In this document: in pieces, positions 2,865 through 23,195 of the stretch | Numbering within the stretch: the first letter of the stretch is position 1 | Layout of the letters: every line of letters starts with the position of its first letter | Origin: a virus | Reading direction: 5' to 3' (one strand) | DNA length: 23,586 nucleotides | IMG/VR virus record: IMGVR_UViG_3300037086_000013 | Location: 1 to 23,586 of that record | The notes under the pieces: model-generated | Seen by the model: the letters and a program-made list of their open reading frames with translations, nothing else | What the model was told of the DNA's origin: nothing | Databases searched by the model: none | Program-made: the position numbers and the translations under genes

Positions 2865-3161
2865 TTATTTTCCTGTGAAGGTAGCCAGCCAGGCTACAAG
2901 AGCCGGCAGCTTCCAAACTAATACTGAAACTAATGCTCCTAAGCCAATAATGGCCCCAACGAGCACCTTAATAACCAAACCGTTTACAAATGTCTTTACC
3001 TTGCCAACTTCCCTTTCAACCACACCCATGCTTGTCTTAGTAAGACTTTCAAGACTGTCCAGCTTTTTGTCTTGAGCCGCCAAATGCTGTTCAGTAAGCC
3101 TTTCACGTCCATCCATAAGTTTTTCCAGAAGTCTGAAACGTTCGTCATTATTGTTCTCCAT
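2865..3161 (-). CDS. Coiled-coil plus membrane protein, XhlA/holin-like (98 aa)
   Basis: Residues 1-58 are charged and predicted helical or coiled coil by eye. Residues 61-93 are an almost unbroken hydrophobic stretch (one long or two tightly packed transmembrane helices, with a K-P break at 84-86), ending in a short tail (GK). This layout is that of the haemolysin XhlA family and of some phage holins or holin accessories. A membrane role in lysis is therefore the leading hypothesis, but no endolysin is visible next to it to confirm. The start overlaps the stop of the 155-aa gene (TAATG), indicating coupled translation. Confidence 0.75.
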   Translation of the reverse strand: MENNNDERFRLLEKLMDGRERLTEQHLAAQDKKLDSLESLTKTSMGVVEREVGKVKTFVNGLVIKVLVGAIIGLGALVSVLVWKLPALVAWLATFTGK

Positions 3162-3628
3162 TACTGCTCCGCTAGAAAGCAGGTTCCGTCTAAAAAGAAT
3201 GAAGCATTGCTGCCGACTAGAGGTATTACCTGTCCAGCAGCTGTAATCTGGACACAGCCAAAGGCATTATTTGACATGACTGCAAAATAATGAGTAGCCA
3301 ATGGGCGGTAACCAACAGGCAGAGCATATGCTGCTGCAGCAATGGTTCCAGTAGAAAGAACCCCCGAAAGATGGACATACCCACTAATGTCTTTTCTGAA
3401 CTGAGGAGGACTGCCACCAGCTAGTGCTACCCAGCTGTTATTAAACTGAGGCTGGCTGGTTGCTCCTACTACCTTCCAACTACTGTCTGAGTTGTTAGCA
3501 GGAATGGCAGCACTAACCTTGTTTATTTTGTCTAATAGGTCTCTAATGGCTGTCTGAAAAGCAGTTACGTCTACGGTTTGAGGAAGAATGGTGCTGCTGT
3601 AATTTGGCCCGCCATGTCCTTCTGGCAT
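3161..3628 (-). CDS. Tail-fibre-like distal module protein (155 aa)
   Basis: Residues 21-40 form a short helical section. Residues 51-155 resemble a beta-rich module I recall from the distal parts of phage tail fibres and similar appendages: WKVVG, then NNSWVALAGG, a QFRKD..GYVHLSG stretch, a TLP.GYRP-like segment (ALPVGYRP, about 102-109), SNNAFGCVQI and a final FFLDG. In those proteins the module is usually a C-terminal domain of a longer fibre; here it is almost the whole protein. A receptor-binding tip or a fibre-cap role is inferred. ATG 3628 overlaps the preceding TAA by one base (TAATG). Confidence 0.72.
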   Translation of the reverse strand: MPEGHGGPNYSSTILPQTVDVTAFQTAIRDLLDKINKVSAAIPANNSDSSWKVVGATSQPQFNNSWVALAGGSPPQFRKDISGYVHLSGVLSTGTIAAAAYALPVGYRPLATHYFAVMSNNAFGCVQITAAGQVIPLVGSNASFFLDGTCFLAEQ

Positions 3629-8225: not shown

Positions 8226-11200
8226 TTACCTGCTGGCCCTAGGAGCGACTGTCGCGGCGACGTCGTCCTTGAGCTCTAGCTGCGCTGAGAGCAGCACTAT
8301 TTTGTTGTTTGCTGTAATACCTACACTGGTTGCCAATGAACGCTGCTGTTGTGGCTGGAGCCTTCTTCGTACTATTCCATTAGTGCTCCAGTCGTTTGTA
8401 TTAATGGCCCATGTCACTTCTTGCAGCTTCTCGCCATTCTCGTCAATAGTGTATACTCTACCAGCCACTGTCATAGCCTCTTTAGCTGCTGAATGGAATG
8501 TTAACACAATACTGCCTATAATGGACTTCTGGTTGCCCATTTGTCCGAAGTAACCTGATTGCCATGTAAATGGTACAACTGTGCTGCCTGAGAGTGGTTG
8601 CCACGTGTAACGCCACTTAGTTGTGTCATTGCTGATTACTATTCCACCAGTGGTTGTATACAATATAGTGTTCGTTTGGTTAACCTTCTTGGCATTCCTT
8701 GTAATAATCTTGTCCAATATAAACAGAAACTCGTCAGGTGTTTGTAATAAGAGGCCATTGTCGTGTACATTGTACACTCCATTTTGTATTACTGTCTCTT
8801 TATTGAAGCGCTGGCCTTTAGTCAGCTGTGCTCCACCATTGAATGTCCACATGCTGTTGTCGTAGCTACTTAGGAAGAAAATGTCGGTTGGTCCTGAGGC
8901 TATATACTGCAGACCACTGCCAATGGCTATTCTGCTTCTGCCACTAACTAGGCCATCCGTCATTTCTACTCTGTAAATAAAGTCACCGTCAAATAGGTAG
9001 TCTTGTGCAAAGAGGTAAAATGGAGTATACTGTCCTTGTATTTCATTGCCTGAGAGGAAGCCGTCATAGAAGTTAACTACACCATATATTGGTCCAGTAT
9101 TATAGTCACTCGTCATGAAGATGGTGCTTATTGGTGTAATGACTGCTTTGTTGAGGTACTGGAAGCCTATAGCAAATGGCAGGTTGTCATTGAAGGCGTA
9201 CGCTGCTCCAGCGAGTGCTGGGTTAGGCAGCTCTGAACCGTCTGAGAGAGTAGTACTCCAGTATACTGGAGCTCCACCTACAACCTGTCCAATATACACG
9301 TCTATGCCGTACTTAGGAGTTACTGTCCTGCTGCCTGCTATTGCTGTACCTATGACCTGGTAGTTAGTTGACACCGGGCTAGCAATAGTAACTGTCTTAA
9401 AGTTTACGTCTACTGAGTTGCTGTACTTGCCTTGCAGTATAGAAGCCATTTGCCAGCCACCTGCTGTAGGTGCCGCTGTACTTGTGAAGTACATTCTGCC
9501 ATTGTAGTCTACTGAGCCCAGTTCCAGAGTGCTGCTGATTGTATCTATAATGTTGAATGGGTAAATGGTGTTGAGCTTATACTCACGCTCACTAATCTGT
9601 TGTATTAGGTTAATTGGGCTTTCAGAGAGAGCCAATGCTTGGAACTGTCCATTAAACTGGTATAGAATACGGTTGTCTGCAACTACATGAGGAATGTAGT
9701 CCTGGTCGTACTCTCCTATATTAGTTAATAACACTCCTAGGTTGTCAGCCCCAGTTGTATTAGTGAGTGCTGCTGCTAGGGCTGCTTGAATGCCCTGTCC
9801 ATTTATTTGTCCCGTTGGTGTCCAAAGTACTCTCAGTTCATAAGGTACTGTAGGAGTTAGGCCGAATGCATTAGTCAGTTTGCCGTAGGCGTCAATCAGG
9901 GTATCAGTGTTGCTCTGGTAGACATTTATTGAAGTTAACTGAGGAGTTGTGTAGGTAGGGGCACTGTACTCCCAAATGTTGGTAGCACTACGTCCGTCCT
10001 TGAATGTAATGTCGGTGTAGCCCAGTCCTATATTGGAATGGAGCACCGTGGCACCTGGAGCAAACGTACTGCTGAAGACTACGTAGTTTGTGAAGGTGTT
10101 GAAGTCATTGTAGCCAGTCACTCCGTAGGCATTTAAAGTTGTGCCGTAGGTTATAGGTAGACTGCTGACCCATGCCCTGCTCTTACCGCCTGAAACTTGA
10201 ATGAGAGTGTAGCTGCCATTCAGAGCTGTCAGTTCATTGTCTAATGAGAGCCTATAGAACACACCCTCTGTGTTGTTTGTAATACCAAAGAGGTAGTATC
10301 CATTCTCAAACTTCCAGGCAAACACCTGTGCCAACTTTTGTTGAGGTAAAATAACCTGGTTAAGAATACCCGCTGAAGGAAAAAGCATGCTTTTTTGTAC
10401 TACAATATAAGGGGTATAGGCCTGTTCACTATACAGCGTGTTGTTATATACAATGGTAGCACCCCATGAGTAATACTTGGTAGCATTATTTGTACTTATT
10501 CCTATACCATAAGGGCCTGTTCCTACACCACCACCATTAGCAGCCCTCCATTGGCTGCCGTCAAATGAAGCTATAGCTCCTATGTATACAACAATACCAC
10601 CAACATAGTTTCCTCCTGAACCAGAGACTATTACATTACCACAATAACTAGTTAACCCAGTAATGTCACTATTAGTAGCACTAGCAGAAATGGGTGAATA
10701 GGCCAATTGAGTATTTACAACTCCAGCCACTGTGTTTTTTCCACACGCGGCTAATGAGGCCCATGGTCCTAATCCATTTCCAACACCTGAAGAGTTTACC
10801 CAGTTAACTGCGTCAAACGAAGCCATTAAACCAGTAACAGCTCCTACCATTAAATAGGAGCCGTATTGAGTAGCTGTGTATACAGCATTAGCACCGACTA
10901 CATTAGCATTGCATGCCGGAGTAGTAACACCAGTACCAGCCTCATTATAAGCATGCCAGCTCGCGGCCGACAAATAACCACCTAGTCCAGCTGCTCCACC
11001 TACCCAGAGAACAGTTGAGTTAGGACTGCCGGCAGGTGCGGTTGGGTAGGTATAAATACACATTGTGTATACATTATTAGCGCCTATAGGAGTAGTTACT
11101 GAAGCTTGTGCTATAGCACCACCAGAGTAGGTGTAATAGTTAACGTTACCAGCTCCACCTGCAAAATAGAGGTTATTATTGTACAGTTCCATACATGTAA

Positions 11201-14200
11201 TCGGTTGACCAGACCAATTTGCTGAAGCCCCACTGTTGTAGGGCCCTAAACCCGTGCCCGTTCCAGCATAAGTTTTCCAACCATTGACTGGGTCAAAACT
11301 ACTGACCATTCCATCAGTTGCTGCAGAAGCATTAATTGCTGCTCCACCAGCCACTACTAGCCAGTTATTATAAGATTTACCAGTAAATATATTTTTACCA
11401 TTTGCCATTATACCAGCAGCTACTAGAGTTGTTCCACCACCTCCACATGCAGCCGTTGAACCCCATGGACCTGTACCCACTCCACCATTCACTGTACCAC
11501 CTAAAAGAGTAGGAGGACTATTGGCTCCTCCAGAAGGGTAAGCCCAATCTGTACCGTCAAATGAAGCGAGGTTATTGCCTGCTGCATAAATCAGGTACTG
11601 GTTATATTGAAAAACTATAGGACTATTAATACTATTGCTGGGCAATTGCCAGTTGAAGTAAGACATTGGTACATTCTTTTTAGTGTATACTTGTTCAAAT
11701 GTCTCCGCCACTGGGTCATAAGAGAAAATAGCATTGTTACCTACCACTGTGGCATTATTTAAAGCGCTAGTTAATACATTTCCAGCAAAGAGTATTCTAC
11801 TGCCCAGCACTGCTGTTTTACCAGCTACTCCATAGTCTAGTGCTCCAAGAGAGTTTTTAAATGGACCAGCAGCAGAGAATGTGGCGCTGTAGGGTGTCCA
11901 AATAGAACCATTCCAATTAGCAATATAACCACCCGAACCTGAAATAATAAGCTTACTACCTAGAGTAGAAGCCCCACCTTGCCCAACCTGATTAATAGGA
12001 GCACCATTACTCCATGGACCAGTTCCTGTGCCTGTTCCATCAGAGTATTTCCAGTTAGCACCGTCCCATGAACGTACTTTGCCTGTAACACCAGAAACTA
12101 TTAAGTACGTACTGTAAGAAAGAATGAAAGCTGAACTGCTAATCTGATTGTCGAATGGACCAGTTCCTGTACCTGTTGCGTCGTAGTTTTTCCAATTGCT
12201 TCCGTCCCACGAACCAACACCACCAAAGCCAGGGCTGCTGACTACCAAATAAGAGCCCCAGGTATATGCAGTTCTAGTAGCTCCCCAACTGAAACCTGAA
12301 CCTGGGTGAGGCACTACACCAACATTAGTAAAAGGACCAGTTCCTGTTCCAGTACCATTCCAATACTTCCAGTTAGCACCGTCCCATGAAGACATTGTTT
12401 CACCACCCCAAACTATTAAGAATGTTAAATAAGTGGTTAAGGTTGTCATGACGTCAAATGTATTACCAAAGAGAGAGGTGCCATTACTGTACGGACCAGT
12501 TCCTGTACCTGTACCGTCCCAGTTCTTCCAATTGGCTCCGTCCCATGAAGCTATACGGTTGTAAGAAGAAGTATTGTTGTAGTCACACGCACCAACCACC
12601 AGCTTAGTACCAAAAGTTGTCATTGTACCTATTCCAATGCCCGGGTGGTCTAGACCAGTAGCAGTACCATTATTAAATGGACCAGTTCCTGTGCCTGTTC
12701 CATCAGAGTATTTCCAGTTAGCACCGTCCCATGAAGTTAGTTTTCCACTCTCTCCTGCTACTATATAGTAAGCACCAAAAACATTTGAAGTGAAAATCTG
12801 ATGACCAACACCAGCATTCCATGGTCCTGTTCCAGTTCCTGTACCGTCATAATTTTTCCATGCTGAACCGTCATAAGAGAACACTCGACCAACTAGTGTT
12901 GAGAAGACTACGGTAGTACCAAAAATGACACTGTCACTAATGTCAGCTCCACCTGAATGGGTACCCGCGTCATAGGGTTGAATGGTTGGTATAGCGGCAT
13001 TATAGTTTATCCACGTAGAAGCAGCAATACTCATGCTGCCCATTTTTCCGTTATTTGAAACTACAAATAGACGTCCACCACTCACAAAAAATGAGGCTAT
13101 AGCATCTGTTCCAACTACCGTTTGATTATTAGCAGGAATGTTTATACCAGTACCGGCTGAATTATATGAATACCACCCGAAAGCCCAACCCAAAAAAGTA
13201 GCCATGAGACCGGTGTTAGCTCCAAAGGAGAGATTACCGTATGACTGCATTGCATTTATGTCTTGACTATTTATTATAGTTGCAGGTGTTCCAGGTGGAC
13301 CAGCACTATAAGTAGAAGGCCCTGTTCCAGCCCCACTACCGTCGTAGTTTTTCCAGTTATACCCGTCATAAGAAGCTATTCTTCCTCCAGCTCCTGCCAC
13401 CACAATAGAAGTAGTAGCAGTAGCTTTGTAAATATAAAGAGTTGTCGCTCCAGTACCACCCAGAGCAAAATAAGTACCACTTGAAGACACCGCAGCCGCC
13501 AACCCTGCTGAAATAGAGGGTGGAGTGACTACATTTGGAAGGTTGTATCCAGTAATACCAACACTTATTAATTCAAAAGGAGTAGTAGCTGTTGCCATGA
13601 AGAAACCTATAGAGGCCCATGACTGGACAGCATACGGTAATCTGTCTAGAGCATTGACTGCATTTCCTGGAGCTACTATAAAGTTACTAGCGTAAAAATA
13701 ACCACCATTCTGTACCTGGTACTCTCTGAGGAATGGAGCACCAGTACAACCAACCATTAACCAACGCCCACCGTTGTCGTACTTAACACAAGTACCAGCA
13801 GTAACCGGCAATGTTCCTGGGTCTGTTTGTTTGGTCCAAACACCAGCAACCAAGAAATAAGTAGTCATGAATGGTGTGGTTGCATGACTAATAGTAACCG
13901 GGTAAGAATTATTTGTAGGGAAGGTTGGGTCTGTACTAAAATCTATTCCACTAGCTGCTCCAGTGGGTGTAACAACTGCTGTAGTCATTGCAGTAAAAGT
14001 GTCACCCGAACGGCTGTATATTCTATAATAAGGAGCACCAGTACAGGACACTCCCAAATACACATTGCCTGGACTGAAAGAACAGCCTGTTCCCTGTGTA
14101 ACTGGCAGTACCACTGGGTCAGCAAGTTTAGTAAAAGTGTCACCTGAGCGCTTATAAATAGTAACGAATGGTGTGGTTGCATGGGCACATGCCAGATAAC

Positions 14201-15593
14201 TGTCACTGTCAGACCAGCTGAGGCCATATACCTGACCAGCTGGCAGTGTTAATGGGTTAGTTAGTTTAGTGAATGTGTCACCTGACCTCTTGTATATAGT
14301 CACAAAAGGAGTTGCCTGACTGCCAACTGCAAGGTACGTGGTACTTTGACTGAATGCTGCTGCTGTGGCCTGAGTTCCGGCTGGCATTGTTCCAGGGTCG
14401 GCTAGTTTAACTAACACAGGAATAGCGGTATTTGAACTCAAATCTGTAATGGTGTATATTGAATTTCCAGATATAGCTGTTCCATTATTCGCCAAAGACG
14501 TTGTGCCGGCTCCTGGAGCATTATAGTTGGTCCACCGTGCTGTTATACTGTCATAGTACCCAATTCCACCATTAGAACTACCCAGTACTAAACGAGTGCC
14601 CACAACCGCGGCAGCCGTTATAGTATTGTTTAGTACTGTATTGTTTGCAGAAATGTTTATACCAGTTCCTGTTCCAGTACCATTCCAATTTTTCCAAGCA
14701 GCACCGTCATATGAAGCTAAATATACACTAGAAGTAACTATTAACCATGTACCGTATTGTAGTATATTTGTAACAGCTCCCACTAGACCACCCGTTCCTG
14801 CTAATGCCACTCCATTGTCATGAGGTCCTAAGCCTAGTCCTGAACCATCTGGGTATTTATAGTTGCCGTATTGGTCTACTGAAAAAATTTTTTGGTCTTG
14901 TGTACCAAATACTACAAATGACAGTCCACCAAATGTATAACTACCGGTAGCCGTAATAGTGTAGTTAGTCAGGTTGCTGTACTTAAGCTGGACCTGAGCT
15001 GCTGCTGCTTCTTTCAGGAAGAAGACCTGCTGGCCAGTCTTGAGCACAAACTCTTGCTGGTCAGCGTAGTGCATTGGTTGGTAGCGTACAAAGTTTAATG
15101 AAGTGTAGGCCGTAGTCAGAGTGCTGAGGGTACTAAAGGTTACTGAGCGAGTGTGTAGTGTGACCAGTGCAGTTGAGAGTTCTGAAATGGTTACTGTGGC
15201 TCCGTCAATCTTGCAAGTTATAAAGGTACCGTCAACTGTTTCAGCAATGTCGTCGTAGCCTGGTATCTGCTCTCTCAGCGTCACACCAACTGCAGACACT
15301 TGTCCCAGTGTCACGTCTGCTCCTACTCCGTCACCGAGCTTGACTGTTCGTAAATGAGAGGAGGGCGAGGTCAGAGTAATTACTTTATTGTCTTCTGTAA
15401 CGTAGTGCGCACCTGCGTCTGCGTAGGACAGCTCTTGCTCGTAAATGTTTGTGAGACCGCCCTCTCTCTCTATACCTGTATTCTGCGGATGTTTAACTGC
15501 TGTGTCTTGAAATGAGTGCGGAACTTGGTCCACGTCTTCTGTACAGACGGAGTTAATGAGAGCTATTTCTGCTTTCTGTCCTGGAAATGCCAT
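8226..15593 (-). CDS. Giant tail nozzle/stabilisation-like protein with inserted propeller repeats (2455 aa)
   Basis: Three parts can be seen. Residues 1 to about 235 hold a beta-rich N-terminus with HPQNTGIEREGGLTNIYEQE, and about 1740-2455 a beta-rich C-terminus (EYDQDYIPHVVADNRILYQF; FVRYQPMHYAD occurs in the N-part) ending in a short-strand segment NNKIVLLSAQLEL. Together, about 950 residues, they fit the size and position of podoviral nozzle/stabilisation proteins (T7 gp12, P22 gp10), themselves propeller proteins; this assignment is inference. Between them lie about 1500 residues of propeller-like repeats: about 20 copies centred on S(W/Y/F)DG..WK.(Y/W)DGTGTGTGP, and a separate block of YKRSGDTFTKL repeats (about 388-628). 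No signal peptide is seen. It starts at ATG 15593 with AAGGAG fused to the adaptor stop. It follows the adaptor and precedes the internal proteins, as in T7-like phages. It could instead be a large tail-spike/adhesin; I rate nozzle-plus-adhesin insertion highest. Confidence 0.75.
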   Translation of the reverse strand: MAFPGQKAEIALINSVCTEDVDQVPHSFQDTAVKHPQNTGIEREGGLTNIYEQELSYADAGAHYVTEDNKVITLTSPSSHLRTVKLGDGVGADVTLGQVSAVGVTLREQIPGYDDIAETVDGTFITCKIDGATVTISELSTALVTLHTRSVTFSTLSTLTTAYTSLNFVRYQPMHYADQQEFVLKTGQQVFFLKEAAAAQVQLKYSNLTNYTITATGSYTFGGLSFVVFGTQDQKIFSVDQYGNYKYPDGSGLGLGPHDNGVALAGTGGLVGAVTNILQYGTWLIVTSSVYLASYDGAAWKNWNGTGTGTGINISANNTVLNNTITAAAVVGTRLVLGSSNGGIGYYDSITARWTNYNAPGAGTTSLANNGTAISGNSIYTITDLSSNTAIPVLVKLADPGTMPAGTQATAAAFSQSTTYLAVGSQATPFVTIYKRSGDTFTKLTNPLTLPAGQVYGLSWSDSDSYLACAHATTPFVTIYKRSGDTFTKLADPVVLPVTQGTGCSFSPGNVYLGVSCTGAPYYRIYSRSGDTFTAMTTAVVTPTGAASGIDFSTDPTFPTNNSYPVTISHATTPFMTTYFLVAGVWTKQTDPGTLPVTAGTCVKYDNGGRWLMVGCTGAPFLREYQVQNGGYFYASNFIVAPGNAVNALDRLPYAVQSWASIGFFMATATTPFELISVGITGYNLPNVVTPPSISAGLAAAVSSSGTYFALGGTGATTLYIYKATATTSIVVAGAGGRIASYDGYNWKNYDGSGAGTGPSTYSAGPPGTPATIINSQDINAMQSYGNLSFGANTGLMATFLGWAFGWYSYNSAGTGINIPANNQTVVGTDAIASFFVSGGRLFVVSNNGKMGSMSIAASTWINYNAAIPTIQPYDAGTHSGGADISDSVIFGTTVVFSTLVGRVFSYDGSAWKNYDGTGTGTGPWNAGVGHQIFTSNVFGAYYIVAGESGKLTSWDGANWKYSDGTGTGTGPFNNGTATGLDHPGIGIGTMTTFGTKLVVGACDYNNTSSYNRIASWDGANWKNWDGTGTGTGPYSNGTSLFGNTFDVMTTLTTYLTFLIVWGGETMSSWDGANWKYWNGTGTGTGPFTNVGVVPHPGSGFSWGATRTAYTWGSYLVVSSPGFGGVGSWDGSNWKNYDATGTGTGPFDNQISSSAFILSYSTYLIVSGVTGKVRSWDGANWKYSDGTGTGTGPWSNGAPINQVGQGGASTLGSKLIISGSGGYIANWNGSIWTPYSATFSAAGPFKNSLGALDYGVAGKTAVLGSRILFAGNVLTSALNNATVVGNNAIFSYDPVAETFEQVYTKKNVPMSYFNWQLPSNSINSPIVFQYNQYLIYAAGNNLASFDGTDWAYPSGGANSPPTLLGGTVNGGVGTGPWGSTAACGGGGTTLVAAGIMANGKNIFTGKSYNNWLVVAGGAAINASAATDGMVSSFDPVNGWKTYAGTGTGLGPYNSGASANWSGQPITCMELYNNNLYFAGGAGNVNYYTYSGGAIAQASVTTPIGANNVYTMCIYTYPTAPAGSPNSTVLWVGGAAGLGGYLSAASWHAYNEAGTGVTTPACNANVVGANAVYTATQYGSYLMVGAVTGLMASFDAVNWVNSSGVGNGLGPWASLAACGKNTVAGVVNTQLAYSPISASATNSDITGLTSYCGNVIVSGSGGNYVGGIVVYIGAIASFDGSQWRAANGGGVGTGPYGIGISTNNATKYYSWGATIVYNNTLYSEQAYTPYIVVQKSMLFPSAGILNQVILPQQKLAQVFAWKFENGYYLFGITNNTEGVFYRLSLDNELTALNGSYTLIQVSGGKSRAWVSSLPITYGTTLNAYGVTGYNDFNTFTNYVVFSSTFAPGATVLHSNIGLGYTDITFKDGRSATNIWEYSAPTYTTPQLTSINVYQSNTDTLIDAYGKLTNAFGLTPTVPYELRVLWTPTGQINGQGIQAALAAALTNTTGADNLGVLLTNIGEYDQDYIPHVVADNRILYQFNGQFQALALSESPINLIQQISEREYKLNTIYPFNIIDTISSTLELGSVDYNGRMYFTSTAAPTAGGWQMASILQGKYSNSVDVNFKTVTIASPVSTNYQVIGTAIAGSRTVTPKYGIDVYIGQVVGGAPVYWSTTLSDGSELPNPALAGAAYAFNDNLPFAIGFQYLNKAVITPISTIFMTSDYNTGPIYGVVNFYDGFLSGNEIQGQYTPFYLFAQDYLFDGDFIYRVEMTDGLVSGRSRIAIGSGLQYIASGPTDIFFLSSYDNSMWTFNGGAQLTKGQRFNKETVIQNGVYNVHDNGLLLQTPDEFLFILDKIITRNAKKVNQTNTILYTTTGGIVISNDTTKWRYTWQPLSGSTVVPFTWQSGYFGQMGNQKSIIGSIVLTFHSAAKEAMTVAGRVYTIDENGEKLQEVTWAINTNDWSTNGIVRRRLQPQQQRSLATSVGITANNKIVLLSAQLELKDDVAATVAPRASR
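12014..12072 (-). repeat. 59-base perfect direct repeat, copy 1
   Basis: Bases 12014-12072 are identical to 12677-12735 (both start ATGGACCAGTTCC on the plus strand and end CCCATGAA). They encode the same SWDGANWKYSDGTGTGTGP segment of two propeller units about 220 residues apart. Most other copies differ at synonymous sites, so this identity implies a recent duplication or conversion. Confidence 0.9.
12677..12735 (-). repeat. 59-base perfect direct repeat, copy 2
   Basis: This is the partner of 12014-12072, 663 bases away and in the same orientation and reading frame. Recombination between the copies would remove or add 663 bases (221 codons, about four units) without breaking the frame. 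Confidence 0.9.
13710..14432 (-). repeat. YKRSGDTFTKL repeat block
   Basis: This second repeat class lies inside the giant protein at about residues 388-628. Five to six units of about 43-47 residues share TPF.TIYKRSGDTFTKL..P..LP....G..FS....YL.V. The clearest copies are coded at about 14259-14308, 14125-14176 and 13986-14036, spaced 134-139 bases. The pattern resembles WD40/lactonase-like blades. It interrupts the SWDGANWK series, which flanks it on both sides, so the two repeat families are nested. Confidence 0.85.
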
Positions 15594-15602
15594 GCCAGCT
15601 CC

Positions 15603-17093
15603 TTAGCGTAACTGATTGTACCAATCTGAGTAGTAGTTTTGTATTCTTTCCGGTGTGCCCTCGTCCTTCTTGAGCACATTCTTGAAGCGCTTCTTTAACT
15701 CTTCTAACCTTAGGGCCAGGGCTCCTGCGTCTGCATTCTGTTTCATTTTGAAGTCAATGGCTGCCCTATAGGACATCATTTCAGCCACTATATTCAGTGT
15801 ATCTGCAAACTCAGTGTCTTCGAAAGTGCTGTGAGCGTGGACGTCCAGGGTCTCTTCGTCTATTGTGCTGAAGTAGTTGTTAGCTGTGTTGCCGAGGTAC
15901 TGTACGTCGTCGTGTAGAATGACGTCTAGTGTAACTACCAATTGGCTGTTAACAGTCAGCTTGTGGACCTCAGAGACACTGTCATCCACGTAGAGGTAGG
16001 TGCCATCTGAAACAACGTGGGTTGTATTACTGTAAATAACACCACCTGCCCAGATTACATTACCAGTAGTAGTTAGGCCCACTAGTTTAAAGTTGCTGCC
16101 TACTCCTATACTGCAAATGTCTGTGAGAGCAAAGGCATATAACAATGTAACAGTACCACCTGAGGTATCTGCCGTATAGGTCTGAGTGCCGTTGTTGAAG
16201 TAAATCAGGTTGTCTATAATAGTGAAGTTCAGAATGTTGCCTATTGCAGTAATCTGTGTAGGTACCACTGTAGCTTGAAGGTCTGTTGCTCCCTTCCAAA
16301 TGTCTCCACCAGACAGGAAGTAGAGGTAGCCTTTGTAGTAAAATATATTACTCTTAGTTGGTGGTGGTGCTGGGTCGTACAATAGGAAGGTGCTGCCTAG
16401 CTGGGTCCACTCTGCGTAAATGTTATAGTGCAGGTTAGTAGGGTCCTGCCACAAGTAGAGCATAATGTCGTTGCTGTTCTGACTTGTAGTCAAGTTCACG
16501 TAGAAGACCTCTTTCAGGCTGTTCTTGTGAGCTACACTCATGCTTTCTACGTAACTTATTTCTGGAGCTGGTACACTCACCTTGGGTGGTGGTGGGTAGT
16601 AACCAACTCTAATCTGTAATGGCGTGGCCTGTGGTGTCTGTCCGACAATCCAAAGGAACCCACCTCTAAACCTGTACTGTGGTTCCATGAGGTTAAAGTT
16701 CTTAATGTTCATGTTGAACTTTTTCATTCGTTGCCACTGTGTCTGGCTCTGGTAGTCCACATAGCGGCCTTTGTAGAAATCTGCTGGTAGTGGTACAAGG
16801 TATTCATTATTCTTGCTGGAAGGTGTCAACATTGCAGAGGTTACCTGAATGGTAGCCTCTGTCAGGTAGGGGTCGAAGTCTGTCTCAGTCAGTGCTGAGT
16901 AAATGTCTTTCCATTCCTCATTCAGGCTGTTCATTTCGTCTGTCGGAGTAATAAACTGAGCATTCTCTAGGTCAGCCAGAGCACGAGCCCTGTCCAGTAT
17001 TTCACTTGCTTTCATTATATTTGGTGCTCCTTGAATGTTGGCTGGAGCGTACTGAAGGCCTGGTAGGAAGAGGAAGTTAAAGAGCAATAACAC
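15603..17093 (-). CDS. Head-to-tail adaptor-like protein with propeller-like insertion (496 aa)
   Basis: The two ends look like a short podoviral adaptor or gatekeeper. Residues 27-180 contain MKASEILDRARAL, a LNEEWKDIYSAL helix, YLVPLPADFYKGRYVDY and IRVGYYPPPPKV. Residues 430-496 hold a helical SYRAAIDFKMKQNADAGALA stretch and end IQNYYSDWYNQLR. Between them (about 185-425) is a beta-rich region with FYYKGYLYFLSGGDIW, NLIYFNNGTQTYT and VSDGTYLYVDD, which reads as propeller blades. It sits between capsid and nozzle, where T7 gp11-type adaptors (about 200 aa) are found. The start chosen is GTG 17093, nine bases after a perfect AGGAGG; ATG 17015 (residue 27), with AAGGAG 11 bases upstream, is a real alternative and would remove a hydrophobic N-terminal stretch. 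The adaptor role is inferred from position and shape. Confidence 0.72.
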   Translation of the reverse strand: MLLLFNFLFLPGLQYAPANIQGAPNIMKASEILDRARALADLENAQFITPTDEMNSLNEEWKDIYSALTETDFDPYLTEATIQVTSAMLTPSSKNNEYLVPLPADFYKGRYVDYQSQTQWQRMKKFNMNIKNFNLMEPQYRFRGGFLWIVGQTPQATPLQIRVGYYPPPPKVSVPAPEISYVESMSVAHKNSLKEVFYVNLTTSQNSNDIMLYLWQDPTNLHYNIYAEWTQLGSTFLLYDPAPPPTKSNIFYYKGYLYFLSGGDIWKGATDLQATVVPTQITAIGNILNFTIIDNLIYFNNGTQTYTADTSGGTVTLLYAFALTDICSIGVGSNFKLVGLTTTGNVIWAGGVIYSNTTHVVSDGTYLYVDDSVSEVHKLTVNSQLVVTLDVILHDDVQYLGNTANNYFSTIDEETLDVHAHSTFEDTEFADTLNIVAEMMSYRAAIDFKMKQNADAGALALRLEELKKRFKNVLKKDEGTPERIQNYYSDWYNQLR

Positions 17094-17204: not shown

Positions 17205-18626
17205 TTAACTAAATTTTACGCATGCACAAACTGAAGCATTTGTAACAGCCAGATTGCCGTAAAACTGCAATGAAATCTGAGTAGCTGGTCCATTGACTGT
17301 GGCTGCACCTGGAACTACATTGAGGTAGTCGTCCATTAGGAGCTTGAATTCAGTTGAAGGCTCACCAGTACCGGTTACAGCCTGCTTGCCTGGGGCATTC
17401 TCAGCAATACCGTCGTTAATTGGCGTCTCCAAGTTGCTGAGGGTCAGCATTCTAAGTGCGTCCTCAGTCAAAATGTAGGCTGTTCCCTTTGGGCAGTATG
17501 GGTCGTCAAAGATTTTCTTAATCCAAGACGTACTGAACAACAGTGAGAGGTTGCTCATTCCTTTAGCCATGCTGATGTCTGTTCCACTAGCGTTATTAGC
17601 GTCAGCGAAGTAAGTCATCTGGCTACCAGCTGCGGTCATTTCGAATGAAATCTGTTGGAAGTCTTCGTCGTTGACTACAATGTACTGAGGTTCTCCACCT
17701 GCTCTGCGGACTAGTCGAACTCCACTGTAGAGGGCGTCGACGTACTTTTGGTTTCCACCAACGTCTCTCAAGTAGAAGTTACCAGCCAGTGCATAGGGTA
17801 CTGAACTTCTGTTAACATTATAGAACACAGTCTGAATGTAAGCATTCCATGCTGTAAGGTCTCCACCACCGGCTGCTCCTCTATTATAGAAAGAAGGCAA
17901 CCAAGCGGCTAGTCCTGTCCAGACATAGGGGCTGCGGGCCACGTCAGAAGCACCGTCTAGTTCAATCCAGGCATTCTGAATGAAACCTGCGACTGGAGCT
18001 ACTGCTGGTGCAAATGTAATTGTGGTTCCTAGAGCTGTTGGGTCAGCAATCTGAGTGACAACATAAGGTCCACCTGCTGCCAGAGCACTAGCTGGGTCAG
18101 CTGTGGTAGTAACCTGGAAGTTACTTCCAACTGCTAACTTAAGTCCCGCGCTATTGTCAACTAGCATTGTGGTTACACCTTGTGCTGAAGGAGCTTGTAC
18201 AACTCCTAGCTCACCGTAGCCACTACCGTATAATAGTGCGGCCATGGTCTTGCGGAAGCCTTCTGTAGCTGAGTGAAACTTTACAGCAGCAATTGGGTCA
18301 TAGGCACCCTTTGGCTTGCTAGAAGCAAGTATTTCTTTAGCTGTAATGTTTACGACAGCAAAGAGTTGTCCAGGTGGAACTTTGAATTCAACGTTCTGCT
18401 CAGCCTGTGCAGCAGCTAGTGCTATAGCAGTGTTATAGTTTCCACTGACTGAGGCACTTCTTCCTGCCATTCCGGCGAACGCGTATTCCTTACCACCCAC
18501 TCTTTCTTTCTTAATGACCCTCATGAGAGGTGAATTTCTGAAGAGTAGACTTTCTACTCCTTTTTCTGTATACCAGGTCTTTAGTACATTTAATACCCCC
18601 TGGTCGGGTGAAACAACTTGTGGCAT
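17205..18626 (-). CDS. Major capsid protein (473 aa)
   Basis: It forms the icosahedral head shell. The assignment rests on position (directly after a scaffold-like gene, following terminase and portal), length, and general character: a polar N-arm (MPQVVSPDQGVLNVLKTW), a compact mixed alpha/beta body with Ala/Gly-rich loops, and a segment AALLYGSGYGELGV (about 129-142) of a kind I associate with HK97-fold capsid proteins. No protease domain precedes the mature sequence, so no maturation cleavage is evident. It has the best ribosome binding site in the window (AAAGGAGG, six bases before ATG 18626) and is followed at once by an intrinsic terminator. With promoter C it forms a self-contained high-expression unit. 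Fold membership should be regarded as inference. Confidence 0.88.
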   Translation of the reverse strand: MPQVVSPDQGVLNVLKTWYTEKGVESLLFRNSPLMRVIKKERVGGKEYAFAGMAGRSASVSGNYNTAIALAAAQAEQNVEFKVPPGQLFAVVNITAKEILASSKPKGAYDPIAAVKFHSATEGFRKTMAALLYGSGYGELGVVQAPSAQGVTTMLVDNSAGLKLAVGSNFQVTTTADPASALAAGGPYVVTQIADPTALGTTITFAPAVAPVAGFIQNAWIELDGASDVARSPYVWTGLAAWLPSFYNRGAAGGGDLTAWNAYIQTVFYNVNRSSVPYALAGNFYLRDVGGNQKYVDALYSGVRLVRRAGGEPQYIVVNDEDFQQISFEMTAAGSQMTYFADANNASGTDISMAKGMSNLSLLFSTSWIKKIFDDPYCPKGTAYILTEDALRMLTLSNLETPINDGIAENAPGKQAVTGTGEPSTEFKLLMDDYLNVVPGAATVNGPATQISLQFYGNLAVTNASVCACVKFS

Positions 18627-18640
18627 TTAAGCCTCCTTTG

Positions 18641-19180
18641 TTATTCCGGTTCAACCACTAGGGGAGAACCTGGCTTTCTAGATTGAGCTATTTTCTTAAT
18701 ATTGTCTAATGGGTCTTCTTCCATTGGACCCTCACTCTTCTCTGCAGTCGGCTCCACACTCTTGGTCTCTACGCTTACTGCAGCAGCTGGGGACTTGTCA
18801 CCGAAGCGTGTCTTGAACTGCTCGAGAATGCTGCCAATGTGTCCTTCTTCGTTGAACCCTTCTCCACCCTTGGCCTCTTCGAGGTCGTCAAACAGATGTT
18901 CGTATATACCTTCTGGGTCTGCTTGAAGAAGTTTATTGTAGTCGTCGTGGAATGGAGAAAACTTCTCGCCGTATTTGCTCTTGACACCAGCAATGCCGTC
19001 CTGTCTGAGCCCGTCTTTCCACATTTTGTCGGCGTCACCAATAATGCGGTCATACACGACAGTCTGAAGTTCAGCGTTGTCTGTGTAGTTTTTGTGTGCT
19101 ACCTGCGCCAATAGGTCCAGTTTTTCCTGGGTCTCTTTCATGAAGCCTTCTAGCGCGGTAATCAGTTCATTTAGTTCCAT
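18641..19180 (-). CDS. Scaffold-like protein (179 aa)
   Basis: A small, acidic, almost wholly helical protein. The N-terminal helices are Glu/Leu-rich (MELNELITALEGFMKETQEK). The centre contains DLEEAKGGEGFNEEG, and the C-terminal 50 residues are Pro/Glu/Ser/Lys-rich and disordered-looking (PTAEKSEGPMEEDPLDN). That composition, and the place between portal and major capsid protein, are typical of phage scaffolding proteins, whose charged ends contact the coat during procapsid assembly. It starts at ATG 19180, 15 bases after the expected start site of promoter C, with only a weak SD-like AGGTAGG. It should be co-transcribed with the capsid gene. A non-scaffold capsid accessory protein is possible. 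Confidence 0.78.
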   Translation of the reverse strand: MELNELITALEGFMKETQEKLDLLAQVAHKNYTDNAELQTVVYDRIIGDADKMWKDGLRQDGIAGVKSKYGEKFSPFHDDYNKLLQADPEGIYEHLFDDLEEAKGGEGFNEEGHIGSILEQFKTRFGDKSPAAAVSVETKSVEPTAEKSEGPMEEDPLDNIKKIAQSRKPGSPLVVEPE

Positions 19181-19212: not shown

Positions 19213-21090
19213 TCAACCTGTTGGAGAAGTCGGTGGCGCCGGTGGTCCTGCTGATTGTTGGTCCATTGGCATCTGTCCGCCTGCTGGGCCTGGGGCTGTT
19301 GGGGGTTGTCCTGTTTGAGCTCCTTGAGGCTGCATGTTTGGAGGAGCCGGAGGAGTGGCGGCCTGTTGTACTGCGTCTATGTCGTCCTTTACCTTGTGTA
19401 ACAACTTTACCAGATTAGTCATGACATCTGAAGCCGGGTCTTCGTCAATAGCGTCCAATCTGAGTAGCATGTTTACTGTCTGAGTATAGAGCTGGGTAAT
19501 GTCGACAACCTCGTAATACTCTACGTTGCCGTCTTCTATAGCCCTCTCTATAATCCGTTGGCAGTCGTTATAACTGGCCTCTAGAATGCTATTAGCTCCT
19601 GCGAGGTCAGGGAGGTCCATGTACAGAGAGACCATGGACTGGTCTATCAGTTTCATGGCTACCATTTGGTTCAGCTGCTCCAGACGTTTGCTGGGGTCCT
19701 TGCTCAGGCTGCTAGCGGCTGATGTCTGAATGCTGTAGTTCTCTCGTTCTTTCTTAATGTCGCCCCATTTAACTGTAGCTCTGCCTGTTTTTTTAGGCAG
19801 TATTTCAAGGTCATTGGGCATTACTTTAATATACGTGTCCATCAGCCTCATGAAGAAGTTAATATAGTCGTCTCTCAGTCTCTGGAAGCGCTCACTCTCT
19901 ACATCTTGCAGAGTGTCCAGGGCCTTACCACTGCTGACATCTGCTGGTTTCTTCTGTTGTGCTGAGAGTTGACTAACTCCTTCCTGTTCGAAGAGCATCT
20001 GGAAGAGTTGTTTCTCTCTGTCTAAGTACTGAGGGTTAATGGCTGCTGGTGTTGCGACTGCTATCTGGCTAGCCCCTCCCCCCAGCGCTGGGTCATAAGT
20101 AACCACTACACCAGCTTGGTTAGTCATCATGCTGGCCTTAGGAATGTCGTCGTCGTCTGTCTTAGGCATTATAATAGTATTGAATGGAGTTACCTGGAAG
20201 GCGTCGTGTATTCTGCGTTCTAGGTCATTTATTTCATTCTGAATGCCCATGGTAGCGTCAATCAGAGAAATACTGAAGCCACCTTTCATTGCTGGTTCGT
20301 ACCAGAATGTTACCACTGGAGGACAGTCATAGTCTATAGCCTGGACCGTAAGTAACTCTGCGTCTAGGAACTCGTATTTGAAGCCATTGTGAAGGTCGTA
20401 GTAAATCCAATAGGTTCCATTGACATTACGTCTTCCCTCTTCGTATTTCTTTTTAACATTGGGGTTGTCATCTAGTTTGCCTCTGTTGTAAAGGTCGCTG
20501 ATTGGGTAGAAGCGTCTGTGTACCATTACTCTGCTGTATTTGTCAAATTGCATTTCAGCTGGGTCGTAGTAGTACTCCCATGGACCAAGACGCTGAATGC
20601 AGCGTTGGTCGTCGTCAACCCAGAGAGCTCCGTACTCCATGGTAAGAGCGTCTCTTAAGCTCATTCGGCCCTTCTGGTAAAGGTTTTCTTTCTCTACTAT
20701 TTCGTCCATGTATATCTGAGCATTGCGACATGTCTTCTGTGTCTTCCACCCACCTGCTACTGGGTTGAAGAAAACGCGTACCTTTATTTGAGACAGTTTG
20801 CTTTCTAGGCTGTTTATAGCACTGCGCTGAGGGTTGAAGTTAGGCAGTATACCTAGGTCCTCGTCACCAACCAGGTAACTAAAGCCCAGTGGCATGCCGT
20901 AAGGATTATAATGAGCCTCTCGTCTGGCTCCATTGGTGTAGAACTGGTTGAAGTTACGTCTATACTTAGTGTCTCGTTGTATCAGATAAGAGTAGAGTAT
21001 CTGAGCGTCACTAATAACAATCTGCTTCTCTAGCTGCCCATTGACTGCACTCTTGTTGGTTACGACTGCTGGTAGGTTTTCTTTTGCCAT
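19213..21090 (-). CDS. Portal (head-tail connector) protein (625 aa)
   Basis: The portal is the dodecameric ring through which DNA is packaged and ejected. It is identified by position between terminase and scaffold/capsid, length (portals of podoviruses are commonly 500-700 aa), and character: an aromatic-rich N-terminal wing (LIQRDTKYRRNFNQFYTNG, LGPWEYYYDPAEM), long helices such as INDLERRIHDAFQVTPF followed by a PKTDDDD loop, and a QLSAQQKKPADVSSGKALDT segment resembling the portal clip/crown region. The last 43 residues (about 583-625) are Pro/Gln/Gly-rich and probably disordered. It starts at ATG 21090, directly after the TAA of the 108-aa gene with only a weak SD, so it depends on translational coupling. 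I cannot say which portal subfamily it belongs to. Confidence 0.88.
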   Translation of the reverse strand: MAKENLPAVVTNKSAVNGQLEKQIVISDAQILYSYLIQRDTKYRRNFNQFYTNGARREAHYNPYGMPLGFSYLVGDEDLGILPNFNPQRSAINSLESKLSQIKVRVFFNPVAGGWKTQKTCRNAQIYMDEIVEKENLYQKGRMSLRDALTMEYGALWVDDDQRCIQRLGPWEYYYDPAEMQFDKYSRVMVHRRFYPISDLYNRGKLDDNPNVKKKYEEGRRNVNGTYWIYYDLHNGFKYEFLDAELLTVQAIDYDCPPVVTFWYEPAMKGGFSISLIDATMGIQNEINDLERRIHDAFQVTPFNTIIMPKTDDDDIPKASMMTNQAGVVVTYDPALGGGASQIAVATPAAINPQYLDREKQLFQMLFEQEGVSQLSAQQKKPADVSSGKALDTLQDVESERFQRLRDDYINFFMRLMDTYIKVMPNDLEILPKKTGRATVKWGDIKKERENYSIQTSAASSLSKDPSKRLEQLNQMVAMKLIDQSMVSLYMDLPDLAGANSILEASYNDCQRIIERAIEDGNVEYYEVVDITQLYTQTVNMLLRLDAIDEDPASDVMTNLVKLLHKVKDDIDAVQQAATPPAPPNMQPQGAQTGQPPTAPGPAGGQMPMDQQSAGPPAPPTSPTG

Positions 21091-21521: not shown

Positions 21522-23195
21522 TTATATGTCTATTACTGTTTTACCCGAATGCCATACTGGTCTCATGGCATAAAGAACCGCGTCTAAGAGGTCTGGGTGG
21601 TACTGTTCGTCTATTTCTCTGGTCAAGTTGTCGTCGTTGTCTCTAGCAAAAATAGTACGCAAGGCCTCGTCTGCAAACACCCCGCCTGCTCTGACTTTGA
21701 AGTAGCCTAGACGCACCTCTTCTTGGAGTATTTCTATAGCCTGGTCCTTGCCTGCCTTGAAGGCATCAGCCATTGGAAGACCGTATTGCTTCTGTAGGTC
21801 GTAGCTTATTTTCAGTGTGCCACCTGCTGTGTCTGCAAAGACATGGAACTTGCGCTTAATGGTCTCTACTGCTGGTGCTCCTGGTGGCATTATTTGTGGT
21901 CTGGCTGCTGGTACTGTGACTGTTGAGTGTTTGAAAATAGGGTGGTTCTCTACCCAGTCTATACCCTTGCGTACCTGCTCAGCTATAGTAGCCACTCCAG
22001 TCCTTCTAGCCTTATAGTCCCAGATTAACCAGCGCTCTGGCTTGTGGGTGCTGTAACAGATTATAGCAAAGCCGTCAGCGTCCTCAAAGCCGTAGTCCAG
22101 TCCTGCTGTAAAGCGGATGTCTGTAACAGGCTGGCTCTTCACCCATTGGTCGAGCTGGGTGTCTGTGAAGTAGTTGTTGTCCTTAAGCCTGTATACCAGC
22201 GCGTCTTCGTCGTATACTGCTCTGCCCAGCCACTCTCTCTGGTAGGTTGGGCTGGCCTCTGTCCACTGCTTCTCTATTCTCTTGCGCTCCAGGAAGCCCT
22301 CGTGGTCCTGAATGTAGGGGTTGTCTTCTATAGTCCAGTTGCTCTGTCCGACTGAAGGGTACCTGAAGCCCGGCCATTTGCCGCTCTCATTAGCCCAAAT
22401 GACGTCCCAGTCGTGGCCCTTGACCTTAGGAGCCGTACCACCCATTATCAGAGTGCCGTCTCTGTCTGCCAACTCAGGGTCCAGTATTTCCTGTATAAAG
22501 CTAATCAGATCAGTGTGCGACTGAGCCTCGTCTATAATAACCAGGTCCCAGTAGGGGCCCCTGTTCTTCTCTCGTTCGGCCACTGAACTGTTGCCTCCTA
22601 CCTTGAACAGAGAGCCGTTTGAGAGGGTAATGGTGCCCTCGCTCTTGTTCTCTTGGAAGTCCGAACCCAGCTCTCTGAGGCCATTGGTCATAGGCAGCCA
22701 CATTAGGTCCATGGCCTTGCCTATTGTGAGGCCTATATAGAGGACACGGCTGTGAGGGTGTGCTGTGAGCTGGCCCCTAGCCTTCTTCTCGTAGTATACC
22801 GTCTTACCTGCACGTCTGCCTGCTCTAATGAATACGCGCTTGGCTGGGTTCATGAGAACAGTCCACTGTTTCTCTGAACTGCCTTGGTATGCGCGGAATA
22901 GAGCGTAATCAGCGTCCTTGCGTGCTTCTGCTGCCTCGTCTGTTAGGATCTGCTTCTGTACTGGTAGTCCTTCTGTCCTGTTGGTTACGAAGTCTATAGC
23001 CCACTTGTCACCATTGAGAGCCATCTGCAGGGCTCTGAGCATAATGGCTTCCTTATAGGTTACCTTCTGCTGCCCATTCATTGGTCCCAGTTCAGAGAGC
23101 TTATTTTTGAGAAGATCTGTAATGCCTTCGCCCTTTTTGGGTCTGCCGGCTGGGTTGCCGGAGACACCAGCGGGCCATTTATATCCGCCTGCCAT
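21522..23195 (-). CDS. terL: Terminase large subunit with N-terminal GNPAGRP domain (557 aa)
   Basis: It is the ATP-driven motor and nuclease that packages and cuts phage DNA at the portal. Walker A is RAGRRAGKT (124-132), Walker B with catalytic Glu is LVIIDEA (218-224), and the coupling motif is GGTAP (252-256). The C-terminal RNase H-like nuclease shows acidic residues at GLDYG (D367), ADTAGG (D455) and HPDLLDAV (D535/D538). Residues 1-95 are an extra domain: VSGNPAGRPKKGEG (11-24) and a helical TYKEAIMLRALQMALNGD section, like the DUF5681 GNPxGRP family that is usually encoded as a separate protein near terminases. No small terminase gene is seen in the window, so this domain may supply DNA recognition (inference). 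It starts at ATG 23195 with AAGGA six to seven bases upstream, just after the methyltransferase stop. It is followed by an intrinsic terminator. Confidence 0.97.
   Translation of the reverse strand: MAGGYKWPAGVSGNPAGRPKKGEGITDLLKNKLSELGPMNGQQKVTYKEAIMLRALQMALNGDKWAIDFVTNRTEGLPVQKQILTDEAAEARKDADYALFRAYQGSSEKQWTVLMNPAKRVFIRAGRRAGKTVYYEKKARGQLTAHPHSRVLYIGLTIGKAMDLMWLPMTNGLRELGSDFQENKSEGTITLSNGSLFKVGGNSSVAEREKNRGPYWDLVIIDEAQSHTDLISFIQEILDPELADRDGTLIMGGTAPKVKGHDWDVIWANESGKWPGFRYPSVGQSNWTIEDNPYIQDHEGFLERKRIEKQWTEASPTYQREWLGRAVYDEDALVYRLKDNNYFTDTQLDQWVKSQPVTDIRFTAGLDYGFEDADGFAIICYSTHKPERWLIWDYKARRTGVATIAEQVRKGIDWVENHPIFKHSTVTVPAARPQIMPPGAPAVETIKRKFHVFADTAGGTLKISYDLQKQYGLPMADAFKAGKDQAIEILQEEVRLGYFKVRAGGVFADEALRTIFARDNDDNLTREIDEQYHPDLLDAVLYAMRPVWHSGKTVIDI

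Follow-up and report, generated by a model that had tools for sequence, protein, structure and literature searches.

Podovirus tail nozzles gate the passage of DNA, dock fibers and bear varied inserts at their tips. In T7 gp12, the tip leaves blade 3 near residue 146 (PMC6702177), in SU10 the nozzle domains are inserted between blades 2 and 3 (PMC9509320), and in crAss001 the insertions lie both between blades 2 and 3 and in blade 3, contact of the muzzle insert with the cell surface having been proposed by the authors (PMC10172136). A precedent for a tail-region protein as receptor binder is provided by the N4 gp65 tail sheath, for which binding to the receptor NfrA has been reported (PMC12892993).

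The window, that is, the whole stretch of DNA analyzed here, is an IMG/VR virus sequence of 23,586 bases whose main genes all lie on the minus strand. Its nozzle-like gene is a single uninterrupted open frame from ATG to stop, encoding 2455 aa as the initial annotation had stated. The protein reaches this length because about 1,490 residues of beta-propellers (about residues 225–1717) are inserted at one site, leaving the following layout:

8226..15593 (−): nozzle-like gene, 2455 aa, about 258.5 kDa
14922..15593 (−): N-terminal nozzle part, residues 1–224; alignment, conserved NTGIER.GG.TN motif
14502..14921 (−): SWDG units 1–3, residues 225–364; 22–37 bits, with shuffled controls reaching at most 6.4
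13419..14441 (−): nested WD40-like YKRSGDTF block, residues 385–725; about seven 46-aa units
12789..13415 (−): SWDG units 4–7, residues 727–935; unit profile
11694..12779 (−): SWDG units 8–14, residues 939–1300; unit profile, last unit degenerate
10443..11609 (−): SWDG units 15–21, residues 1329–1717; unit profile, two units degenerate
8229..10442 (−): C-terminal nozzle core, residues 1718–2455, with the remaining core strands and the C-terminal platform; 11-sequence alignment, Foldseek

By analogy with T7 gp12 the protein is presumably hexameric, and if so would have a mass of about 1.55 MDa. We consider it likely that it is a nozzle of the T7 gp12 type that bears exchangeable propeller heads where tip domains are inserted, with host binding as their probable role.

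The assignment of the two ends to a podovirus tail nozzle is well supported. Behind a methylase fragment, the minus-strand gene order runs from TerL through portal, MCP and adaptor to the 2455-aa gene, and the same slot is occupied in about 20 relatives:

21522..23195 (−): terminase large subunit (TerL); phrog_2, E 8e-20
19213..21090 (−): portal protein; phrog_156, E 5.5e-5
18641..19180 (−): probable scaffold, from position only
17205..18626 (−): major capsid protein (MCP), from position and homology among relatives
15603..17015 (−): adaptor-like (head–tail connector) gene, 470 aa from ATG; position, synteny and short-adaptor alignment
15816..16565 (−): insert in the adaptor, residues 151–400, 250 aa; lacking in four distant relatives

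Six relatives (L040, L042, L046, L047, L049 and L050) have array-less orthologues of 900–960 aa in the nozzle slot. The N-terminal and core profiles are contiguous in two of these (L040 and L042) and 1483 residues apart in the 2455-aa protein, where the N-terminal part ends at residue 235 and the core starts at residue 1718; the ends proposed in the initial annotation (1–235 and 1740–2455) were thus accurate. An AlphaFold2 model of the C-terminal core, built from a 3-row alignment, is poor (pLDDT 34), so that its Foldseek result serves as support only: all seven of the top seven PDB matches are podophage nozzle or tail chains (phages VP1, E1004 and PhiM1, and T7 gp12; E 1.1e-5 to 3.9e-4). Seven like matches from four phages are unexpected from noise, but with TM-scores of about 0.12 they constitute support and not proof. 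The initial annotation had called the ends nozzle-like, a reading it would have abandoned had structure prediction pointed elsewhere; the slot after the adaptor, the array-less orthologues and the matches of the core, which are nozzles, all agree with it.

No sequence similarity to known nozzle families was detected in PHROGs, Pfam or the PDB, even using the array-less members. This is usual, since the nozzles of SU10 and T7 are not detectably similar in sequence either (PMC9509320). The 2455-aa protein itself has no match in PHROGs, and in Pfam only weak matches to WD40-type propellers around residues 403–490. Searches of sequenced phages with the core, portal and MCP of this record gave no match, nor did searches with the array-less L050 nozzle and the L049 portal, and no relative of the nozzle core or of the SWDG units was found in the bacterial and archaeal genomes searched. 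In L008, a distant TerL match, the protein occupying the nozzle slot (1060 aa) shows no detectable similarity, and this locus was left out.

An iterated SWDG-unit profile that covers 13 relatives, its threshold set by composition-shuffled controls, recovers 18 units in the 2455-aa protein, and three degenerate units recognized by eye (at about 1264, 1526 and 1715) bring the total to 21. The ‘about 20’ SWDGANWK-type repeats of the initial annotation are therefore a fair description, the strict motif itself being present in only about 8–10 copies. The units agree with the four-strand blades of about 45–60 aa, closed in sets of seven, that are expected of seven-bladed propellers, and their counts leave out HMM matches inside nested blocks. 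Across relatives the sets comprise 7, 14 or 21 units, counts that are partly by eye and include degenerate units, the last blade being degenerate in most nozzles. Because closed seven-bladed propellers require multiples of seven, these counts fit such propellers, and the sets of the relatives appear to be whole ones. The SWDG units have no Pfam match, and hence no match to a named repeat family (Kelch, WD40 or BNR). An origin from duplicated nozzle blades is not supported: a core segment (2306–2329) entered the iterated model, yet it scored −0.1 bits once the model was made from the other units.

SWDG propellers also occur as the C-terminal heads of four fiber-like proteins (L013:5729-10990, L016:8060-11803, L017:8468-11287 and L018:8297-10813), which belong to large phages (91–250 kb contigs). 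Unit counts in these independent proteins are 7 (L017), 14 (L016), 14 (L018) and 6+1 (L013). The heads stand behind Ig-like repeats in L016 and behind a Cys/Gly-rich stretch in L017.

A better model was obtained for the relative L025, which carries seven SWDG units (six by profile, one degenerate). This AlphaFold2 model, built from a 21-row alignment and without the 33 N-terminal and 18 C-terminal residues, has a mean pLDDT of 84.4 and a pTM of 0.67. It is almost all beta, and its predicted secondary structure comprises strand groups at 51–86 and 89–150 before the insert, an insert (residues 173–505) of seven repeats with three clear strands each and a fourth that is short or missing, and a four-strand group at 532–568 after it. 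This arrangement, as read from secondary structure, fits a placement of the insert after blade 2. In the PDB, multi-propeller proteins match the model best, and a chain of the crAss001 tail assembly (7qol_P), presumably the muzzle gp44, is found at rank 49. Among the matches in a viral library, crAss-like ‘stabilization proteins’ and one protein annotated as P22 gp10 stand amid generic propellers. Together with the repeat counts in sevens, the L025 model supports the earlier suggestion that the insert consists of propellers.

Within the first SWDG propeller lies a second type of repeat. The YKRSGDTF block described in the initial annotation was recovered at residues 385–725, with four strong units, three of them near-exact copies of YKRSGDTF/YSRSGDTF, two partial units above shuffle, and degenerate remains. 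It matches Pfam WD40 models weakly (E 2e-5 to 3e-5, under Pfam's own cut-offs) and WD40-type proteins of other phages at E 5e-22; phages CGphi29, ctYwJ313 and ZRG1 have similar units in genes of their structural regions. In L014, 18 SWDG units by profile and 21 with degenerate ones form a layout equal to that of the 2455-aa protein minus the WD40-like block, which is absent. Since the two arrays otherwise align (38% identity over 1028 aligned positions), the simplest reading is that the block was inserted into the first SWDG propeller after unit 3 and before unit 4, the pairing of units being ambiguous around this junction. Most other relatives have four SWDG units, then a nested BNR-like block (YGNG.FVAV...TSPDGITWT) and then three SWDG units. 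The BNR-like blocks thus follow unit 4 and the WD40-like block unit 3, so that these are insertions at different places. L021 harbors two BNR-like nested blocks, and in L044 and L045 BNR-like repeats alone occupy the insert site; the type of insert is exchanged at a single position of the core.

Relatives were collected from IMG/VR with the repeat as query (16 loci) and with the core alignment of 11 sequences (24 loci). Both searches together yield about 15 distinct nozzles with an array, from 1251 to 2455 aa in length, the present one being the longest, and all share the TerL–portal–MCP–adaptor–nozzle order as far as their contigs reach. The initial annotation knew of no described nozzle of this design, and a search of open-licence papers found none with propeller arrays; the design is not unique to this phage, given the about 15 related contigs. 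In a tree of portal and MCP, the four shortest array-less nozzles form the outgroup and L014 is the sister of this phage (support 99). At least three changes in SWDG presence are needed on this tree, which implies that propellers have been both gained and lost. In the closest pair, L023 and L031, the nested block diverges fastest: identity is 78% for the portal, 55% for the core, 47% for the SWDG blades and 25% for the nested block. The L019/L020 and L015/L019 pairs also show nested-block identity below that of portal and MCP, with SWDG blades not below the core.

Two further relatives show variations of the locus. L002, found by an MCP search, has in the nozzle slot a 1614-aa gene with the same repeats as the 2455-aa gene; in L004, found by a second search, the nozzle homologue is split inside the array, giving one ORF of 422 aa and another of 1534 aa. 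An AGGAGG motif stands eight bases before the second ATG (L004:15313-21187), and the split may reflect a frameshift from sequencing or a genuine nozzle made of two chains. Both loci carry a 609–631-aa gene between MCP and adaptor (L002:11770-13599 and L004:12158-14053) that is missing from this record.

The neighborhood holds additional candidates for appendage parts. The adaptor insert, which contains repeated YYKGYLYF/DGTYLY-like strands, is shared with the array-bearing relatives as well as with L040, L042 and L044, the adaptors of the four distant relatives without it being 215–234 aa long; it might be a fiber dock or another propeller. Downstream of the 2455-aa gene lie proteins of 454, 292, 657, 124, 155, 98, 121, 117 and 686 aa. 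The repeats of the last (8-2068; ..SLNNTYFKVHSTTTDYYVWYNV..) resemble a domain in the SWDG protein of L013 (5729-10990), making it a candidate second fiber or appendage protein, and the 155-aa protein (3161-3628), a candidate short fiber tip, matches minor tail proteins of phages at their C-terminus (phrog_13022 and phrog_3285).

A more far-reaching proposal, for and against which our judgment is evenly balanced, is that the nozzle of this lineage is a platform for exchangeable propeller-in-propeller heads and its channel gate the main host-recognition organ, one site gaining, losing, multiplying and nesting whole seven-bladed units of three families (SWDG, BNR-like and WD40-like). In the reading that we consider likely, a platform from both chain ends would surround a central seven-bladed propeller closing the DNA channel, as in T7 gp12, SU10 and crAss001. 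Where known nozzles bear tip domains, this lineage would insert one to three seven-bladed SWDG propellers, a further propeller (WD40-like here, BNR-like in relatives) often being nested within the first of them. Six copies around the tail would present about 24 extra propellers per virion at its distal end, and these propellers probably bind glycans or proteins of the host surface, binding perhaps being passed mechanically to the nozzle gate. We infer the exact insertion blade, the distal display and the coupling to the gate; position, module exchange and divergence suggest the role of the array as an adhesin.

Multi-blade propellers can also serve as enzymes or scaffolds, and the most serious alternative retains the nozzle but regards the propellers as a structural or enzymatic extension, for tail lengthening or degradation of capsule or matrix, rather than as receptor-binding heads. 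The tip domains of SU10, which mainly build an extended nozzle (PMC9509320), and the weak match of an L021 nested block to the sialidase-type repeat model BNR_2 (E 4.6e-6, under Pfam's own cut-off) would agree with such a function, but neither the SWDG units nor the WD40-like block matches any Pfam enzyme family at its cut-off. Recognition better fits the occurrence of different propeller families at one site and the fast divergence of the nested block, and we judge the structural or enzymatic alternative unlikely.

Far less probable still is a separate fiber or spike with the nozzle encoded by another gene. The use of SWDG propellers as terminal heads of fiber-like proteins in large phages speaks for it, but it is largely refuted by the nozzle-sized array-less orthologues in the slot; the core itself gives Foldseek nozzle matches, and no second nozzle-like gene was recognized from sequence between MCP and the downstream genes of the record. 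Short-read assembly can misjoin repeats, and the broken L004 homologue might be taken as a sign that the long array is a metagenome misassembly. This is just as improbable: the array lies in a single 7.4 kb open frame, its units, mostly 60–83% identical in DNA, are distinct enough to assemble, and L014, from a different sample, shares the 21-unit layout (without the WD40-like block).

A nozzle of the T7 gp12 type with exchangeable propeller heads, the reading we prefer, provides a natural series of 0, 7, 14 and 21 units on one conserved core. This series makes two questions testable, namely how receptor contact opens the gate and how domain-in-domain insertion evolves, and the exchangeable heads could be useful as binding modules.

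The protein shares with T7 gp12 (PMC6702177), one of the seven top Foldseek matches of its core, the slot after the adaptor and probably the central propeller, and the position of the insert, after about 200–235 residues, is comparable to that of the T7 tip domain, after about 146 residues. However, the tip of gp12 is a small beta-barrel, compared with about 1490 residues of propellers here, and the two show no detectable sequence similarity. The SU10 nozzle (PMC9509320) likewise has a multi-domain tip insert at blades 2/3 directed towards the host, but this consists of four Ig-like domains forming an extending nozzle and includes no propellers. The crAss001 muzzle gp44 (PMC10172136) has very large, length-variable insertions at the same blades, a T7-like ring-joining domain and a propeller, its presumed chain 7qol_P being among the L025 matches; by contrast, its insert is built from Ig-like and ‘crass’ folds and has no propeller repeats, and there is no sequence match. 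The WD40-repeat proteins of phages CGphi29, ctYwJ313, XacN1, ZRG1 and POR1 contain YKRSGDTF-type units, but are encoded by separate genes and not within a nozzle in the three regions examined. The fiber-like proteins of L013, L016, L017 and L018 have the SWDG unit in C-terminal sets of 7 or 14, but on other N-terminal parts and without the nozzle core. Large variable nozzle-tip inserts are already known; what appears to be new here is an insert of whole propellers.
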